Assembly: GCA_030765645.1 (NCBI GenBank)
Contig: JAVCCE010000055.1
Span: forward strand, 1-50,123
Direction: 5' to 3'
Origin: Candidatus Hinthialibacter antarcticus
GTDB taxonomy: Bacteria > Hinthialibacterota > Hinthialibacteria > Hinthialibacterales > Hinthialibacteraceae
DNA: 50,123 nucleotides
Shown: piece after piece, positions 16,164 to 26,402 of the stretch
Layout of the letters: each line of letters starts with the position of its first letter
Position numbering within the stretch: position 1 is the first letter of the stretch
Position numbers and translations under genes: made by a program
The notes under the pieces: model-generated
What the model was told of the DNA's origin: nothing
The model's database searches: none
Seen by the model: only the letters and a program-made list of their open reading frames with translations

Positions 16164-16817
16164 ATGAAACTCAAACTAACTCGTGGACGGTTGAGAAAGG
16201 CTGCGCAAGAATTTAGCGTAATTGAGTCGAGTCACGATGAACCCAAACTGTATGGCGTTACGGATGGTAAGGCTATTGGAACATACTTAGAGCATAAATT
16301 TAATGATTATTTAAGCGCTCGTTTTGATTATTCAGTTGGTAATTCTGCCAAAGGAATTGATTTCCCCAAACTTGGTATTGACATAAAGGTAACAAGTATT
16401 AAGCAACCCCAATCCTCGTGTCCATATAAATCGGCGCGTCAAAAGATTTTTGGACTGGGTTATGCGTTATTAATCTTCATTTATGAAAAATCAGACAATG
16501 ACGAAACTCGAACCGGACGGCTTGATATTCGTCACACAATATTTGTAAGCGCCGAAAATACAGCAGACTTTCAGACTACCACTGGAATTCTTAGAATTCT
16601 TGAAAATGATGGAAACAAAGATGATCTGTTGGCTTTCCTTGAAGAAAGGATGCTCCCCGCTGACAGTATTGAGGCAGAACGCATTGTTGACGAGATACTC
16701 AACACCCCGCCAGCCGTAGGATATCTTACGATATCGAATGCGTTGCAATGGCGGTTACAATATCGGCGAGTCATCGACATCGCAGGAGACGTTGAAGGCG
16801 TTATACGGGTTTTTTGA
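16164..16817 (+). CDS. Type II restriction endonuclease (PD-(D/E)xK type)
   Basis: 217 residues. The catalytic core is visible in GIDFPKLGIDIKVTS: D66, then D73-I-K75, a PD-(D/E)xK arrangement, preceded by the helix GTYLEHKFNDYL with a conserved-looking glutamate. The C-terminal LQWRLQYRRV could contact DNA. The specificity is not recognised. Its stop overlaps the start of the methyltransferase, so the two are translationally coupled. It starts 40 bases after the family A repeat. Base composition is clearly more AT-rich than the flanking genes, which suggests horizontal acquisition. Confidence 0.8.
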   Translation: MKLKLTRGRLRKAAQEFSVIESSHDEPKLYGVTDGKAIGTYLEHKFNDYLSARFDYSVGNSAKGIDFPKLGIDIKVTSIKQPQSSCPYKSARQKIFGLGYALLIFIYEKSDNDETRTGRLDIRHTIFVSAENTADFQTTTGILRILENDGNKDDLLAFLEERMLPADSIEAERIVDEILNTPPAVGYLTISNALQWRLQYRRVIDIAGDVEGVIRVF

Positions 16818-18346
16818 TTGTGGTGAACGTATTGCCATATAAAACAATAGAAAAAACAGAATTTGGTGATTGGCAAACCCCGTTGCCTCTTGCAAAAGAA
16901 ATATGTGCTTTGATCACTCAAAAAGTTCAACCCCGGTCTGTTTTTGAGCCAAATTGCGGAAAAGGCGCGTTCCTTCATGCTGCAATGGAGTCTTGCACTG
17001 AAGCCGTTGAATTTGTTGGTTTGGAAATCAACAAAAAATATGTTGATGAAGTCCGTTCGATAGAATCAGGTATGTTAACGGTAATCCATGACGATTTTTT
17101 TTCTTGTTCTTTAGAAAACATCATTCAAAAGTTACCTGAACCGTTGCTTGTGATAGGCAATCCTCCTTGGGTTACCAATTCTGAACTGACGCGAATCCGT
17201 AGCGAGAATCTCCCCAACAAAACAAACTTTAATGGTGTGAGTGGAATTGATGCCATTACAGGAAAAAGTAATTTTGATATTTCGGAATGGATGCTGATTC
17301 AGGAGGTTGAAGCATTGCAAGGGAAAGATGCTCTCCTCGCAATGCTTTGCAAGACAGCAGTTGCAAGAAAAGTTATTTTATTCATGTTGAAAAAAGCGTT
17401 TGATTTTTCAGAGGTGGAAATCCGAAAAATAGACGCGCAAAAATTTTTTCGCGTTGCCGTTGATGCTTGTTTGTTTGTTGTTCGTTTTCTGCCGAAACAG
17501 CAGTGTCAGCATTCAGATTGTCGAATTTATTTGTCTCTCAAATCGAACATTCCCTCCGATGTTCTTGGAATGCGCAATGGCCGGCTCGTTACAGATGTTG
17601 AGACCGTTGATCGATTTCAAGACGTCCTCGCGCTGAATGCAACAGACTTTACATGGCGTTCAGGGGTTAAGCACGATTGTTCTAAAGTCATGGAATTGTT
17701 TGTTCAATCAGATGGGCGACTCAAGAACGGCTTTAAGGATTATGTTGATATAGAGGACGCATTGCTGTATCCGATGTTGAAAAGTTCTGATTTGGCGAAT
17801 GGTCGAACTCGCGAAATCCACAGACGTATGCTTATTACTCAGCAGAGCGTAGGCAGCGATACAAAAAGTATTCAATATTTGTATCCAAAAATGTGGCATT
17901 ATCTAAATGAACACGCCGAAAAATTAAATAATCGGAGAAGCAGTATCTATAAAAATCGACCTCCGTTTTCCATTTTTGGCGTAGGAGATTATTCATTTAA
18001 ACCGTGGAAAGTCGCAATTTCCGGTCTGTATAAAAAATTACAATTCAGCATCATTGGCCCCTATGAAGGAAAGCCTGTTGTCGTTGACGATACTTGTTAT
18101 TTTTTATCTTGTGAATCAGAAGAAGAGGCGAATGTTATCGGGAGTATTTTTGCATCAAAAGTTGTTCAAGATATTTTGATTGCGCACATTTTTTGGGACT
18201 CTAAGCGTCCGATCACTAGAGATATTCTAAGTATTATTGATATTCCTGCTGCTGCACGAAGAATTGGCTGTTTTGAGGCGCTTGTCAAAGTTTGTCGAAG
18301 CCTCTCGCATCATAAACAGTCAGACCTTTTTGCAATGCGTTTTTAA
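16814..18346 (+). CDS. Type II DNA adenine-N6 methyltransferase
   Basis: 510 residues from TTG 16814, which overlaps the endonuclease stop as TTGA; GTG at 16820 or 16823 is an alternative. Motif I (SAM binding) is VFEPNCGKGAFL at ~residues 42-53 and the catalytic motif IV is NPPW at ~116, which identifies an amino-methyltransferase acting on adenine. The order and long C-terminal target-recognition part fit the gamma-type type II enzymes. It protects host sites from the partner endonuclease. It overlaps the convergent transporter gene by four bases, and its AT-rich codon use matches the endonuclease. Confidence 0.88.
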   Translation: MIVVNVLPYKTIEKTEFGDWQTPLPLAKEICALITQKVQPRSVFEPNCGKGAFLHAAMESCTEAVEFVGLEINKKYVDEVRSIESGMLTVIHDDFFSCSLENIIQKLPEPLLVIGNPPWVTNSELTRIRSENLPNKTNFNGVSGIDAITGKSNFDISEWMLIQEVEALQGKDALLAMLCKTAVARKVILFMLKKAFDFSEVEIRKIDAQKFFRVAVDACLFVVRFLPKQQCQHSDCRIYLSLKSNIPSDVLGMRNGRLVTDVETVDRFQDVLALNATDFTWRSGVKHDCSKVMELFVQSDGRLKNGFKDYVDIEDALLYPMLKSSDLANGRTREIHRRMLITQQSVGSDTKSIQYLYPKMWHYLNEHAEKLNNRRSSIYKNRPPFSIFGVGDYSFKPWKVAISGLYKKLQFSIIGPYEGKPVVVDDTCYFLSCESEEEANVIGSIFASKVVQDILIAHIFWDSKRPITRDILSIIDIPAAARRIGCFEALVKVCRSLSHHKQSDLFAMRF

Positions 18347-19950: not shown

Positions 19951-20766
19951 ATGAATAACCGAATCCTCACCGCAGCCGCACTTGTAATCGTATTCGCCAT
20001 TGGAATCCACACTGTGGGCTTCGCCCAGCCCGACAGCGCCACCCAGGCCGTAAGTGGGGCGTTGACGGGGGATGAAGGCGAACAAGGCATGACCCTGTTC
20101 AACCTGTTGCAGACTGGCGGGTGGGTGATGGCAGTGTTGGCGGCGCTGTCGATTTTGACGCTGACGCTGGTGATTTATTACTTCACGATCCTAACCGAAG
20201 GGCGCTTGTTGCCGGGTGATTTTGTCACGCAATTGCGCAACTTCGCCCGCGACCAGAAACTCGAAGAAATTTCGCGTCTGTGCCGCCGTTCGCGGGGTAT
20301 GCTCGCAAAAGTCGTATTGGCGGGCGTGAATAGGGCGCCCAACGACCCCACCGCCGTCAGCGCGGCGATGGAAGCGGTCGGCAAGCGTGAGGCGCAGGGG
20401 CTGATGCGCAAGGTGCGCTATTTGTCTGACGTCGCCACTGTGGCGCCAATGTTGGGGCTGCTGGGGACAGTGCTCGGGATGATTCAGGCGTTTAATTTCA
20501 TTGCGTTCGATATCAGCGCGGTGAAGCCGGTCGCGTTGGCTAGCGCGGTCGCGCAGGCGCTGGTAACGACCGCCGCCGGGTTGATTGTGGCGATTCCCAG
20601 CATGGGCTTCTACTTCTTTTTCCGCAGCCGCCTGGAAGGCATCATCGGGCGGGTGGAGGAAATCGCGTCCGAAACCGCTGACCAGATCGCCCATCCACCG
20701 CAATCCACTGCGCGCAAGACGGTGCGAAAAACCACCACCGCGCGCGCCAAGAAAACCACGGCCTAA
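19951..20766 (+). CDS. MotA/TolQ/ExbB proton channel family protein
   Basis: 271 residues from ATG 19951 (ribosome site AAGGAAAAGGG). An N-terminal signal-like segment ending GFAQ precedes a short periplasmic part and three helices. The TM2-TM3 core is APMLGLLGTVLGMIQAF and AVAQALVTTAAGLIVAIPS. The threonines matching ExbB T148 and T181 are kept, but the position of the near-universal glutamate (E. coli ExbB E176, in IAEAL) is Gln202. The tail is a basic Lys/Thr/Arg-rich segment (TARKTVRKTTTARAKKTTA), absent from classical ExbB. Together with the ExbD 15 bases downstream it should form the proton-driven motor of the operon. Confidence 0.92.
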   Translation: MNNRILTAAALVIVFAIGIHTVGFAQPDSATQAVSGALTGDEGEQGMTLFNLLQTGGWVMAVLAALSILTLTLVIYYFTILTEGRLLPGDFVTQLRNFARDQKLEEISRLCRRSRGMLAKVVLAGVNRAPNDPTAVSAAMEAVGKREAQGLMRKVRYLSDVATVAPMLGLLGTVLGMIQAFNFIAFDISAVKPVALASAVAQALVTTAAGLIVAIPSMGFYFFFRSRLEGIIGRVEEIASETADQIAHPPQSTARKTVRKTTTARAKKTTA

Positions 20767-20781
20767 AGGGAAAACGCAGGC

Positions 20782-21216
20782 ATGAACCTATTACCGAAAG
20801 AAGCCAGCGAAGAGCCGGTCATCCCGATGGCGCCGATGATCGACATCATCTTTTTGCTGCTGATCTTTTTTATCACGACTTCGATTTTCGCCCGGCTCGA
20901 AAATGAATTGTCGATTACCGTGCCGACGGCGGAATCATCGGTCCCGCCCAAGCGCGACCTGGGCGAATTGATCGTCAACGTCAAAGACGACGGCTCGATC
21001 ATCGTTAATCAAAAACAAATTACCATCGACCAACTCGGTTTGCTGGTTTCGCGCATCGCCAAACAGTTTCCCGACCAGTCAGTCATCATTCGCGGCGACC
21101 GGGGAACCCGGTTTGAAGACGCGGTATCAATCTTAGACGTGTGCGCGAAATCCGGCGTATGGAACGTATCGTTTGCGGCGCTGCCGCCCGAAGAAGGTGA
21201 AGCCGTCGGCGGCTGA
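20782..21216 (+). CDS. ExbD/TolR family protein
   Basis: 144 residues. A single membrane helix carries the proton-carrying aspartate (APMIDIIFLLLIFFITTS, D21), followed by a periplasmic domain of ExbD type (ELIVNVKDDGSIIVNQKQI, then VIIRGDRGTRFEDAVSILDV). The intact Asp contrasts with the changed residue in the partner channel. Spacing of 15 bases to the channel gene and 29 to the TPR gene supports one operon. Confidence 0.93.
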   Translation: MNLLPKEASEEPVIPMAPMIDIIFLLLIFFITTSIFARLENELSITVPTAESSVPPKRDLGELIVNVKDDGSIIVNQKQITIDQLGLLVSRIAKQFPDQSVIIRGDRGTRFEDAVSILDVCAKSGVWNVSFAALPPEEGEAVGG

Positions 21217-21245
21217 ACATTCGCCCCGGTTGCTGGATCGACGTT

Positions 21246-23729
21246 ATGAAATCAACTCCAAGGCATATTCATCGAATGGCTCTTCATTGCTGCGCGGCGC
21301 TGTTGGCGGCGCTGGCGATGTGTGCGGTTGCCTCTGCGCAAAACGCCGCAGGCGAGGCGGTACTGTCGGCGTCGCAACAAGCGCGGATCGAGCAGCAAGA
21401 CCTCGATTTCGCCGACGGCTTATATCAACGCGGTATGTTCGAGAGCGCGGCGCGTCATTATGAGGAGTTCATCGACAAGCACTCACAATCGAGCAACCGT
21501 GAACTGGCTATGTTTCGCCAGGCCGAGTCGCTCTATCAACATGCGACCAAAATTCTCGACGGCGACCCGCTCAACGGCAACCTGTTTTATATTGACGCCC
21601 GCAGCATCTTGCAGGCGCTGATTGAAGAGTTCCCAAACGGCGCCAAACGCTTCGACGCCCGCATGAGGCTGGGCGAGATCGGCTACAAGATCGGCGACGC
21701 CGAAGGCGGCCTGCCGCACTTGGAATACGTCGTTAAAGAAGCGAAGGAACCGACGGTGATCGAGTCGGCGCTGTTTTATGCGGCGCGTTGCTATGACCGC
21801 CTGGGGCAAAATCCCAAAGCGGAAACCAATTACAAACGCATTCGCGAGCAATACCGCAAAGGCGCATTTGGAGCGTTCGCTTCGTTTCTGCTGGGTGAAT
21901 TGCTGTCAAAACAAGACCGCTTAGACGAAGCCGTCCCCGTACTCAATCACCTCTGGCAAAATCAAAACGACTATCAAATTCCCGAAGGCTCCGGCCTCAT
22001 TGGCGACGCGCAATTGCTCGCGGCGCAATTGCTGTACAAACAAGACCGCTATACCGAAGCCGCAAACGCCTACCGCGCCTTCGCTGAATCCAGCCCGGAC
22101 GGCTCCCAAAAAGCGCGGGCGCAATACGGCGCCGCCTGGGCCGAATATCAACAACAAAACTACCCCGCCGCGCTGACCATCGCCGCGCAATTGAAGCGCC
22201 AGTTTCTGCCCGCCGATATGGTGCCCGGCATCTTGTTTTTGCAGGGCGCCTGTTCGTATCAGAAAAAAACCTACCAGGACGCCATCAGCTATTTTCGCGA
22301 GACGATTGCCAACCCCGACGCGGGCGAATACCGCGACCGCGCCTGGTATCAACTGGCGTGGTCGTATTATCTGGCGGGCGATTATTCGCAGACGGAAGTC
22401 GAGTGCCGCAACCTACTGCGCATTGGCTCCACGCCGGATGTCGCCGCCAAGTTGCATTTTCTTTTAGGACAGGCGTACGCGCAGCAAGAAAAATACGAAA
22501 CCGCCGCCGAGGAATTGATGAAGGTCGAGTTGCTCGACCCGGCCAGCGACTTCTGCGAAGACGCGCTCTATCTGTTGGCGGACTTGCTCTACCGCGCAGA
22601 GCAATACAGCCGCGCCAGCCATGAGTTTGCGCGGTATTACAAGAAATACCCGGATTCAGAACGCACCCGGCAGTCTTTGGTTTGGGCGACCAACGCCGCC
22701 TTCGCCGCCAAAGATTATGCGAACGCGATTGATCTCGCCGAGCAATTAATGCGCACCTATCCTGATATCCCGTCGCTGCACGATTTGCTCTATCGCAAAG
22801 CGCTGGCGCAATACCATCTCAAACAATTAGACGACGCGCTCGATACGCTGCTCATGCTGTCGCAATCCGACCGCAGCGAAGAACGTAAGCCCGAAGCGCT
22901 CTACTGGCAGGCGTACATCTATGAGATGAAACAAAACCTGACGCGGGCGTCCAGCGTCTACGGCGAGTTGTTGGAGCGCTACCCGCAATTCGGCAATAAC
23001 GACGAGGTGCGGTTGCGCAAGGCGTTCTGCGACTATCAGGACGAAAAATTCGACGAAGCCTACGACGGCTTTCGCTTGTTGCTCGATAGTCCCAAACAGA
23101 AAGACGTCCCCGTCGAGATCGGCTTCTGGATGATCGTTTACGCCGACGAAGCCGAACGCCATGAAGACGCGCTGCAAGTGGCGGAGGCGCTGTTGAAAAT
23201 CCACCAGAAAGATGACGTGCAAGAACGCGCCCGAATCGCCCAAGGCAATCAACTGATCGCCCTGCAAAAATGGGCGCAAGCGAAACTAAGCGCCGAAGCA
23301 TTCTTGAAGACATTTCCCGATAGTTTATTCAAGCCGGAAATTCACTGGGTGCTGGCCAAGGCGCTTGAAGGCCTCGGCGAGAGCGATAAGGCCGCCCAAT
23401 ATTTTGAAGAAAGCCTGTTGCAGTTGCAGGCGATGGCCAATCCCGACCCCGATTTTGAAGCCAAGATTTACGTCGATATGGGCCGAGTGTTGGACTCGCA
23501 AAACAAACGCAAAGAAGCGCTGGACGCTTTTCTGCGCGTCGCCATCTTGTTTGACCATCCCCGCCTGACGCCGGAAGCGATGTACCGCGCCATTCGCTGC
23601 CACCTCGCTGACGAACAGACCAGTGAAGCCGCGACGTTGATGGATGAACTGGTCGAAAAATATCCTGACTCGCAATGGGGCCGCCGCGCGCGCGAAGAAT
23701 TTCAATCGCTGGCGCAACCGGCGCCCTAA
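21246..23729 (+). CDS. Periplasmic TPR-repeat protein of the Exb-VWA operon
   Basis: 827 residues with a signal peptide (hydrophobic CCAALLAALAMCAVASA, cleavage near SAQ). The rest is an array of about 15 or more TPR-type helix pairs (for example GLYQRGMFESAARHYEEFI and LYRAEQYSRASHEFARYY), of the YbgF/BamD-like periplasmic type. TPR arrays scaffold protein complexes. Lying between the ExbD and VWA genes, it probably links the motor to its target in the periplasm or at the outer membrane. No catalytic motif is seen. The next gene starts 12 bases later. Confidence 0.88.
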   Translation: MKSTPRHIHRMALHCCAALLAALAMCAVASAQNAAGEAVLSASQQARIEQQDLDFADGLYQRGMFESAARHYEEFIDKHSQSSNRELAMFRQAESLYQHATKILDGDPLNGNLFYIDARSILQALIEEFPNGAKRFDARMRLGEIGYKIGDAEGGLPHLEYVVKEAKEPTVIESALFYAARCYDRLGQNPKAETNYKRIREQYRKGAFGAFASFLLGELLSKQDRLDEAVPVLNHLWQNQNDYQIPEGSGLIGDAQLLAAQLLYKQDRYTEAANAYRAFAESSPDGSQKARAQYGAAWAEYQQQNYPAALTIAAQLKRQFLPADMVPGILFLQGACSYQKKTYQDAISYFRETIANPDAGEYRDRAWYQLAWSYYLAGDYSQTEVECRNLLRIGSTPDVAAKLHFLLGQAYAQQEKYETAAEELMKVELLDPASDFCEDALYLLADLLYRAEQYSRASHEFARYYKKYPDSERTRQSLVWATNAAFAAKDYANAIDLAEQLMRTYPDIPSLHDLLYRKALAQYHLKQLDDALDTLLMLSQSDRSEERKPEALYWQAYIYEMKQNLTRASSVYGELLERYPQFGNNDEVRLRKAFCDYQDEKFDEAYDGFRLLLDSPKQKDVPVEIGFWMIVYADEAERHEDALQVAEALLKIHQKDDVQERARIAQGNQLIALQKWAQAKLSAEAFLKTFPDSLFKPEIHWVLAKALEGLGESDKAAQYFEESLLQLQAMANPDPDFEAKIYVDMGRVLDSQNKRKEALDAFLRVAILFDHPRLTPEAMYRAIRCHLADEQTSEAATLMDELVEKYPDSQWGRRAREEFQSLAQPAP

Positions 23730-23741
23730 AACGGAAGACTG

Positions 23742-25559
23742 ATGTCTCAAGCCGCTTATTCGCCCACATGGAACGCCGCCGCATCGCGACGCTCAACCGC
23801 TGACCGTTTTTTGGTTGTTGCGTTGGTTGCATCGTTGGCGCTGCATGGCGGGTTTGTATTGTGGTCGTATTTCAAAATCGTCAATGTCGCCCAACAGGCG
23901 CAAGACGACCTCGAAACCTTGTTCAAAGTGAACCTCGACCAGCTGACGTCGAGTAACTTCGTTTCGCGGCCCAACCAACGTCAATTGATCGAAGAACGCG
24001 AGCGCGTATTAGAGCAAGAAGTGATTGAACGGGCCGAAGCGCGGCAACGGGCCGTTGAAGGCGCCATCTCACAGATGGGGGTTCCATTTGACGGCGACGT
24101 GCCCTCCAGCCAGGGATCATCGTCTGATTTATTTATTGACGACCGCTCGGCGCAAAACCTGGTCACCTCCGAGCTGGGCAAAGCCTCGGTAATGGATTTT
24201 GAAGATGACGCAGGCGTTAACTCGATCATGGACAACGTCGCGCCCATCCCGAAGATGGCGCTGTTGGGACGCGGCACCGGTTCAGGACGCAGCCTGCTGG
24301 CGAACCTGCCGCCGCCCGTGTTGGACGACCAGCCTGCCGTGCAGCGCTCGATGGAAAACGACATCCTGGCGCAAACCGCGCCGCCCGTCCCCGATGTGGA
24401 AGCCGAAGACCCGCCCATCATCCTGCCGCCGGTGACGGAACTGCTGCCATCGCCTGATCTCATAAAACCCAGCGACTTCAAGTCAACGCTGCCGTCTGAA
24501 GAAGCCGCCAAACAGGCGATCGAAGAACGCTTTGTGAAATTAGACGACCTGCTCGACGTGGAGTTGAAAACCTATCATCACATCGGCGGCGACGGGTATT
24601 TCATGCTGCGGTTGCGTCCCAAAGGCGCCGACGACCGCTTGCGCGTCTTGCCCAAAGACGTGGTGTTTGTGCTCGACGCCTCACGCAGTATGGGCAGCCG
24701 CCGCTTGCGTACGATCAAGGGTGAAGTGAACGACATGCTGGGGCGGATGCGCGAGGGCGACCGCTTTAACGTGGTCGGTTTCAAAGGCCGGGTCGATTTG
24801 TTTACCGAAACCCTGGCGCCGGTCAGCCCCGATTCGATTCAGCAAGCAAAAGAGTTTCTCATTGATCTCGACTCGTCAGGCCACACCGATATTTATCGCT
24901 CGATGGAGCCGCTGGTCAAACTCGGCGTCGAGCGCGCCCGCCCGTTGATTCTATTATTGTTCAGCGACGGCCGCCCGTCGGTGGGCGTGGTCAATAGCCG
25001 CAAGATCATCAACAACCTGACTCAATATCGCGGGCCGAGTACGTCGATATTTTGCGTAGGCAGCGGGATGCAGATCAACCGCTACCTGCTCGACATGCTA
25101 GCGTTTCGCAACCGCGGCCTGGTCGCGTTTGAACCCGAGCGCGAGGGCCTGCCGCAAGTCATTCAATCGGTTTATGGATATGTGGAAGACCCTGTCTTGT
25201 TGCGGGTCGAGGCGGACTTTGGCTTCCTCGATAAAAGCGAAGTGTTCCCCAAACGGCTGCCGGACTTATTTCTCAAAGGCGAGTTGCGAATCTGGGGGCG
25301 CTTGCAGCAGCAGGATTACATCACCGTTCGCATCACCGGCGAAGCGTTTGACGAACAGAAAGAAACCATCCTGCGCCTGCCGGTGCCAGAGATCGACAAC
25401 GCCACCTTTGAAGTCGCCCGCCAATGGGCGCTGCATAAAATTTATGACCTGATCGGGCGCATGGTCGAAGAAGGCGAAACGCCGCAAATTTTGCAAGAAA
25501 TCCAGTCCATCAGCGACACCTACAACGTCGTCACTCCCTACTCAGAACAAATCGACTAG
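23742..25559 (+). CDS. TonB/TolA-like anchored protein with von Willebrand A domain
   Basis: 605 residues. Residues ~22-44 form one membrane helix (FLVVALVASLALHGGFVLWS) with S31 and H35 spaced as SxxxH, the pattern that TonB and TolA use to engage ExbB/TolQ. Residues ~60-100 look like a coiled coil (QRQLIEERERVLEQEVIERA), and ~110-250 are Pro-rich and extended. Residues ~305-490 are a VWA domain with the full MIDAS: DASRSMGS (DxSxS), the threonine in SGHTDI and the aspartate in FSDGRPS. A beta domain and helical tail follow (ARQWALHKIYDLIGRMVEE), as in VIT/VWA proteins. There is no TonB C-terminal domain. It is the last gene of the operon. Confidence 0.9.
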   Translation: MSQAAYSPTWNAAASRRSTADRFLVVALVASLALHGGFVLWSYFKIVNVAQQAQDDLETLFKVNLDQLTSSNFVSRPNQRQLIEERERVLEQEVIERAEARQRAVEGAISQMGVPFDGDVPSSQGSSSDLFIDDRSAQNLVTSELGKASVMDFEDDAGVNSIMDNVAPIPKMALLGRGTGSGRSLLANLPPPVLDDQPAVQRSMENDILAQTAPPVPDVEAEDPPIILPPVTELLPSPDLIKPSDFKSTLPSEEAAKQAIEERFVKLDDLLDVELKTYHHIGGDGYFMLRLRPKGADDRLRVLPKDVVFVLDASRSMGSRRLRTIKGEVNDMLGRMREGDRFNVVGFKGRVDLFTETLAPVSPDSIQQAKEFLIDLDSSGHTDIYRSMEPLVKLGVERARPLILLLFSDGRPSVGVVNSRKIINNLTQYRGPSTSIFCVGSGMQINRYLLDMLAFRNRGLVAFEPEREGLPQVIQSVYGYVEDPVLLRVEADFGFLDKSEVFPKRLPDLFLKGELRIWGRLQQQDYITVRITGEAFDEQKETILRLPVPEIDNATFEVARQWALHKIYDLIGRMVEEGETPQILQEIQSISDTYNVVTPYSEQID

Positions 25560-25686: not shown

Positions 25687-26346
25687 ATGCGTAAATCGGG
25701 TTTTACATTGATTGAATTACTCATTGTCGTCGCCATTATTGGAATTTTGGCTGCGATTGCCGTCCCCAACTTTTTAAACGCCCAAATCCGCGCCAAGGTC
25801 GCCCGGTCTCAGGCCGATATGCGGTCAACGCTGACCGCCGTTGAACAGATGCGCCTCGAGCGCGGCTTGATGCTCGTTGACTTCTGGGACGACGACACCG
25901 ACTGGGGCAAAAAGCGAATGGCTGAAGATTTTGGCGGCGTGGGCGACGTGGGAGAAGCAAATCGCCGTCAGGTTCATGTGTTGGCGCCGCTCACCAGTCC
26001 GATTTCGTATATGAGTTCCGTCCCGCAAGATCCATTCGCGCCCAACTCTCTTGAAAGCGCATCCGGCGGACACTCTGAACGCTTTGGAATCTCAGGCAAT
26101 GATGTGTATTACTACGCTGATTTTGATATGCAATCTGATAGCGGCGGCTACGGCGGAACTCAATATAACCCGCCCTTCAAAAAAGGCGATTACATTTTGA
26201 TGGCGTTTGGGCCGGCGTCGGCGGAGGTGTATGCGACAAACGGCATCCGCTTCGGCATCCCTTATGACGTGTCGAACGGCACTCATAGCATTGGCGATAT
26301 TATGATGAAATCCGGCGGCGGGACAGTGCGTTCTGACGGTCGCTAA
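25687..26346 (+). CDS. Type IV prepilin-like protein (PulG/GspG type)
   Basis: 219 residues from ATG 25687 with GGGAGG upstream. It has a classic prepilin leader MRKSG followed by FTLIELLIVVAIIGILAA, cleaved between G and F, then the helix VPNFLNAQIRAKVARSQADM. The remainder is a globular beta-rich head with many Gly/Ser/Tyr (SDSGGYGGTQYNPP). Such single prepilin-like genes are abundant in PVC-type genomes, and their assembly partners are usually elsewhere. It follows the VWA gene by 127 bases and probably has its own promoter. Confidence 0.9.
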   Translation: MRKSGFTLIELLIVVAIIGILAAIAVPNFLNAQIRAKVARSQADMRSTLTAVEQMRLERGLMLVDFWDDDTDWGKKRMAEDFGGVGDVGEANRRQVHVLAPLTSPISYMSSVPQDPFAPNSLESASGGHSERFGISGNDVYYYADFDMQSDSGGYGGTQYNPPFKKGDYILMAFGPASAEVYATNGIRFGIPYDVSNGTHSIGDIMMKSGGGTVRSDGR

Positions 26347-26372
26347 ACGCGAGACAAGTGAATGAAAACTCA

Positions 26373-26402
26373 AAGCGGGCGTACAATGCGTCCGCTTTTT
26401 TA
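26373..26402 (+). terminator. Rho-independent terminator of the prepilin gene
   Basis: An imperfect stem AAGCGGGCG / TGCGTCCGCTT is followed by six T, 30 bases past the stop. Confidence 0.75.

Follow-up and report, generated by a model that had tools for sequence, protein, structure and literature searches.

A probable proton-motor operon with a putative VWA force transducer in the uncultured phylum Hinthialibacterota

Known ExbBD-type motors and VWA transducers

To our knowledge, the known outputs of ExbBD-type motors are limited to the Ton and Tol systems and a few others. The gliding machinery of Myxococcus combines the TolQR-type motors AglRQS with GltC, a TPR protein, and CglB, a VWA adhesin which is an outer-membrane lipoprotein. 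VWA domains of the type found in inter-alpha-inhibitor heavy chains (ITIH) serve in protein binding in many roles. The closest described systems are the ‘vWA force transducers’ of Williams-Jones et al., 2025 (PMC12204202), which are anchored by an SHLS helix and encoded beside TPR, tolQ and tolR genes. The helix was modelled with AlphaFold3 at the edge of the motor, the full SHLS motif was found in many but not all of these proteins, and paired tolR-like genes were reported to be frequent in the PVC group without being defining (PMC12204202). The same study described the motor box strand of TonB and TolA, named YfbK as a likeness of the vWA head, and suggested a gliding machinery of the Agl-Glt kind as a possibility (PMC12204202). 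A text search of the literature for the combination of motor, TPR, and VWA returned nothing besides this paper.

The operon analysed here is well supported as a further case, in an uncultured phylum, of this kind of transducer already published in 2025. Both share a Ser/His helix (with His35 identical in number), a disordered linker with a possible motor box, a VWA head replacing the TonB C-terminal domain, and adjacent TPR and TolQ/TolR genes. The present operon differs in encoding one exbD rather than a pair, in its exbB-exbD-TPR-VWA order, in belonging to a phylum outside the published list, in lacking the final two letters of SHLS (Leu and the second Ser), and in a head that is nearest to ITIH-type VIT-VWA proteins, with YfbK far weaker. 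New here are thus the phylum, the single exbD, the apparent ITIH-type ancestry, an invariant MIDAS, the TPR-VWA pairing, and His-to-Tyr variants of the helix.

Organisation of the operon and its motor subunits

The window, the whole 50,123-nucleotide stretch of contig JAVCCE010000055.1 of Candidatus Hinthialibacter antarcticus, contains four open reading frames on the + strand at 19951-25559, in the order exbB, exbD, TPR, and VWA, as given in the first-pass annotation, which had listed ExbB-like, ExbD, TPR, and single-helix genes in tight series. The intergenic gaps are 15, 29, and 12 bp. The first gene (19951..20766, +) encodes a 271-aa ExbB/TolQ-like putative proton channel with an additional hydrophobic N-terminal segment, identified by Pfam MotA_ExbB (2.9e-27), a phylogenetic tree, and alignment to TolQ. 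The second (20782..21216, +) encodes a single-copy, 144-aa ExbD/TolR-like protein (Pfam ExbD, 1.2e-25), the Asp21 of which aligns to Asp23 of TolR. A sequence search of the PDB with ExbB returned only TolQ/ExbB. The NCBIfam TolQ and TolR models were the best matches to the motor pair, yet scores fell far under their cut-offs, and the motor is therefore regarded as a distinct paralogue. The pore Thr residues of the TolQ-type channel are kept in the ExbB alignment, and where TolQ has its conserved Glu (IAEAL), the ExbB of the window has Gln (VAQAL). Most operon members have Gln or Lys at this position, differing from ordinary TolQ, and Glu is found in G011; proton coupling may therefore differ.

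The third gene (21246..23729, +) encodes an 827-aa protein with a Sec signal peptide and Pfam TPR matches, and no lipobox was found in any homologue examined by comparison of N-termini. Its AlphaFold2 model (mean pLDDT 90) consists of helix pairs throughout, forming a long solenoid, and Foldseek returned generic TPR solenoids only. A single long open frame in G011 (L044:4676-9367) spans both the TPR and the VWA gene, which may reflect a fusion or a lost stop.

The anchor helix, linker, and head of the VWA protein

The last gene (23742..25559, +) encodes a 605-aa single-helix protein with a C-terminal ITIH-type VWA domain, the putative force transducer. Its AlphaFold2 model (mean pLDDT 70) shows a confident helix and head separated by a largely unstructured linker. 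The N-terminal membrane helix was placed by hydropathy at residues ~23-48 (23808..23885, +), within a modelled helix spanning residues 17-61. Inside this single membrane helix lie S31 and H35, the S31-x3-H35 putative motor-binding motif (23832..23846, +), which align with S16/H20 of E. coli K-12 TonB and S18/H22 of TolA, in keeping with the earlier description of a TonB/TolA-type motif. Among 13 homologues of the same GTDB class, which share 27-62% identity with the VWA protein of the window, H35 is the sole invariant residue before position 285, the next being G285. Conservation of S31 reaches at least 90%, with AxxxH in place of SxxxH in one class member. A wider survey covered 76 homologues from three phylum-level groups, in which helices were chosen by hydropathy alone and then aligned. 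The His was kept in 63 of 76 and Ser at -4 in 56 of 76, with three long third-phylum open reading frames (L218, L221, L224), in which the helix may be misplaced, counted as lacking the His. In the second phylum, Tyr replaces His in 9 of 30 VWA proteins (L125-L154). SxxxH was absent from the VIT-VWA paralogues (22 loci, including some duplicates). As judged from these alignments, conservation of SxxxH exceeds chance expectation, and the possibility raised at the outset that the pair might not be conserved in homologues was not borne out, the pair being largely conserved in both data sets.

Of the remainder of SHLS, neither the Leu nor the second Ser is kept, the residues at +7 and +11 from His being Ser42 and Ile46, and the family has mostly Ser at +7. 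Following the helix, the conserved stretch LETLFKVNL (residues 57-65; 23910..23936, +) coincides in position with the motor box of TonB and TolA, and may, from its alignment, be the equivalent element. The linker (~67-265) is mostly low-confidence or disordered in the model, save a helix at 79-111.

The VWA domain (residues 306-464; 24657..25133, +) was recognised by Pfam (PF00092, 7.8e-11). No TonB_C domain was detected by Pfam, and the model and Foldseek agree with the proposal that a VWA domain takes its place. The complete DxSxS MIDAS that had been read from the sequence was likewise confirmed: D312-A-S314-R-S316 (24675..24689, +), completed by T382 and D409, is invariant in 13 of 13 class homologues. 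The top Foldseek match was inter-alpha-inhibitor heavy chain 1 (ITIH1, 2.4e-22), and ITIH4 came first (2e-42) when PDB sequences were searched with a profile. YfbK of E. coli, considered as nearest relative, was rejected, scoring 29.5 bits against 245-273 bits for bacterial VIT-VWA proteins. Alignment with ITIH heavy chains and bacterial VIT-VWA proteins extends through the VWA and next domain over ~300 residues, but the VIT domain, present in the paralogue L019, was not found by Pfam in the VWA protein of the window, which has a helix and linker instead. From the ITIH-first matches and the weak YfbK score, the head therefore looks to be of ITIH-type ancestry, with a putative motor-binding helix and linker where the VIT domain would stand. 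The designation as an ‘adhesion domain’ did not hold up: it finds no support beyond the name of the fold, because the protein is inner-membrane-anchored and periplasmic and ITIH-type VWA domains are not confined to one role.

Two variations in gene structure were observed among homologues. The VWA gene of G010 is frameshifted, either genuinely or through an assembly error (L046:5971-7726), with two pieces present, the first containing SVLIH. Some VWA proteins of the third phylum (L218, L221-L224) are roughly doubled in length, at 1,121-1,305 aa.

Distribution and gene order

The VWA profile detected the gene in every one of the 14 class genomes, in 61 of 68 second-phylum genomes (where a few hits are partial or belong to VIT-VWA paralogues), and in 85 of 151 third-phylum genomes. 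VIT-VWA matches in other phyla lack the anchor and were told apart from true members on that basis. The exbB-exbD-TPR-VWA order, for which a search of genomes had been recommended, recurs in both the class and the second phylum. It is intact in nine of the 14 class genomes (G000-G004, G006, G008, G009, G011), in G290 and G153, and in each of the 17 other second-phylum loci long enough to test, one of which (L199) has ~1.2 kb between exbD and the TPR gene; exbD is single in every linked locus. In these two groups, the VWA gene does not normally lie away from exbB/exbD, an outcome that would have spoken against the proposed coupling. The locus of G007 is interrupted by a contig end. In the other four class genomes (G005, G010, G012, G013), the TPR-VWA pair is detached and orthologous exbBD genes lie elsewhere in the genome. 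A tree of 24 ExbB-like proteins joins the detached ExbBs to those of the operon at 90/90 support and separates them from TolQ and MotA. In the third phylum, 20 of 20 loci have the TPR and VWA genes as a pair, with exbBD not adjacent. As TPR-VWA stays paired where exbBD has moved, this pair appears to be the conserved core. The invariance of this pairing also makes it plausible that the TPR protein acts as a scaffold or partner of the VWA protein.

Relationship to the other motors of the genome

Three MotA/ExbB proteins are encoded in the genome: the ExbB of the operon, a flagellar MotA (L060), behind whose gene lie two MotB-like genes, and a TolQ (L059, on contig C57) from a cluster that also contains tolR, tolA, tolB, and a pair of pal-like genes. 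The sole TonB_C protein of the genome is the TolA of this tol-pal cluster, whose helix also carries SxxxH. Since a complete Tol-Pal system and MotAB are encoded separately, the operon represents an additional third motor and not the Tol system. The two have in common motor subunits nearest to the TolQ/TolR models, the helix motif, and a helical-repeat periplasmic partner, but the neighbours of the operon include no TonB_C-like domain, TolA C-terminal domain, TolB, or Pal. With the ExbB-ExbD-TonB system the operon shares the type of motor and the SxxxH helix, and differs in its VWA head without TonB_C and in having no receptor gene nearby. Zorya defence was rejected as an identity, with 14.8 bits to ZorA and no ZorB. 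The pal-like genes of the genome's own tol-pal cluster form a tandem pair encoding Pal-like lipoproteins (L059:3563-4890). Another motor set was observed in G001 (L122), comprising 653-aa and 212-aa ExbB-like proteins, an ExbD, and a 226-aa single-helix protein; it is absent from the genome of the window.

Proposed function and alternative explanations

Together, these data point to a dedicated trans-envelope motor in which the VWA protein docks on ExbB and the TPR protein is the periplasmic partner, a reading to which we assign a probability of roughly 0.75. The coupling of an Exb-type motor to a TonB/TolA-like anchor, the central claim of the first-pass annotation, is well supported, neither helix conservation nor gene linkage having gone against it. 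By homology with TonB and TolA, the VWA protein would dock on the side of ExbB via the S31/H35 helix, and proton coupling by ExbBD would allow the flexible linker and ITIH-type VWA head to carry force into the periplasm. The MIDAS metal site, if it binds metal as its homologues suggest, may grip a partner there. The secreted TPR solenoid would be the obligate periplasmic partner, probably contacting the VWA head or linker as a scaffold or adaptor.

Part of the evidence runs against a dedicated motor, namely the third-phylum motor genes that are not adjacent to TPR-VWA, the replacement of His by Tyr in nearly a third of second-phylum members, the AxxxH of one class member, the incomplete SHLS motif, and the Gln or Lys found in most operon ExbBs in place of the conserved Glu. 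The Tyr variants, and the persistence of TPR-VWA pairs with exbBD elsewhere, would fit a helix that is a mere membrane anchor, its SxxxH inherited or fortuitous, with the VWA and TPR proteins acting without the motor. This is nonetheless unlikely given that no residue other than the His is invariant among the first 284 and that the detached ExbBs are still specific to the operon group. The operon might also be the TonB system of the organism, the VWA protein replacing TonB to energise TonB-dependent receptors, as two Plug-domain proteins are encoded in a genome whose single TonB_C protein belongs to tol-pal. However, TonB boxes are bound by the C-terminal domain of TonB, to which the VWA head is unrelated, G001 possesses the operon in addition to its other motor set (exbB-exbB-exbD plus another single-helix protein), and the operon is present in most second-phylum genomes (counting the few paralogous or partial profile matches), which together make TonB replacement quite improbable.

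The set of TolQR-type motor, TPR protein, and VWA protein parallels AglRQS, GltC, and CglB, so that a gliding or surface motility machine of the Myxococcus Agl-Glt type, with the VWA protein as adhesin, has to be considered. We hold this to be improbable: the VWA protein is anchored in the inner membrane, unlike the surface lipoprotein CglB, no Glt family match exceeded its cut-off (the TPR protein scored 23.8 bits with the GltC model, for a cut-off of 450), and the TPR-VWA pair occurs in the third phylum, the 1-3 Mb genomes of which (probably Chlamydiota) are a poor fit for such a machine. A Bat-type operon, in which VWA and TPR proteins of the BatA/B/C kind lie beside exbBD by chance, would account for BatB (3ibs) among the structural matches of the VWA head and for a weak BatC match of the TPR protein. 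It is very hard to reconcile with four genes that travel as a group across two phyla and with an ITIH-type VWA protein bearing a motor-binding helix motif, and neither MoxR nor DUF58 was found among the annotated neighbours.

It can be proposed, tentatively and at somewhat less than even odds, that the family stands next to Ton and Tol as a third, likewise proton-driven and widespread class of envelope machine. Its ITIH-type VWA head would have exchanged VIT for a motor-binding helix and would pull on a TPR scaffold through a metal-gated grip, and the motor of the TPR-VWA core can be encoded elsewhere. The retention of a transducer with a VWA metal site across the class and the second phylum points to a task of importance in the envelope of lineages which, at least here, have Tol-Pal as well.

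Neighbouring genes

A prepilin-like gene (25687-26346, +) lies ~130 bp 3' of the VWA gene. Of six same-family genomes, five have it in this position, at 57-71% identity. A strong terminator-like hairpin follows it at 26372-26398, none equally strong being present before the gene, and a promoter scan found nothing. With 82 pilin-like matches in the genome and the best G002 copies located elsewhere, the prepilin-like gene was set aside as a functional part of the operon and treated as local synteny. Upstream of the operon, at 16164-18346 (+), a type II restriction enzyme gene overlaps a type II DNA methyltransferase gene, forming a compact restriction-modification pair (PADLOC, 1.2e-98 and 3.8e-155).
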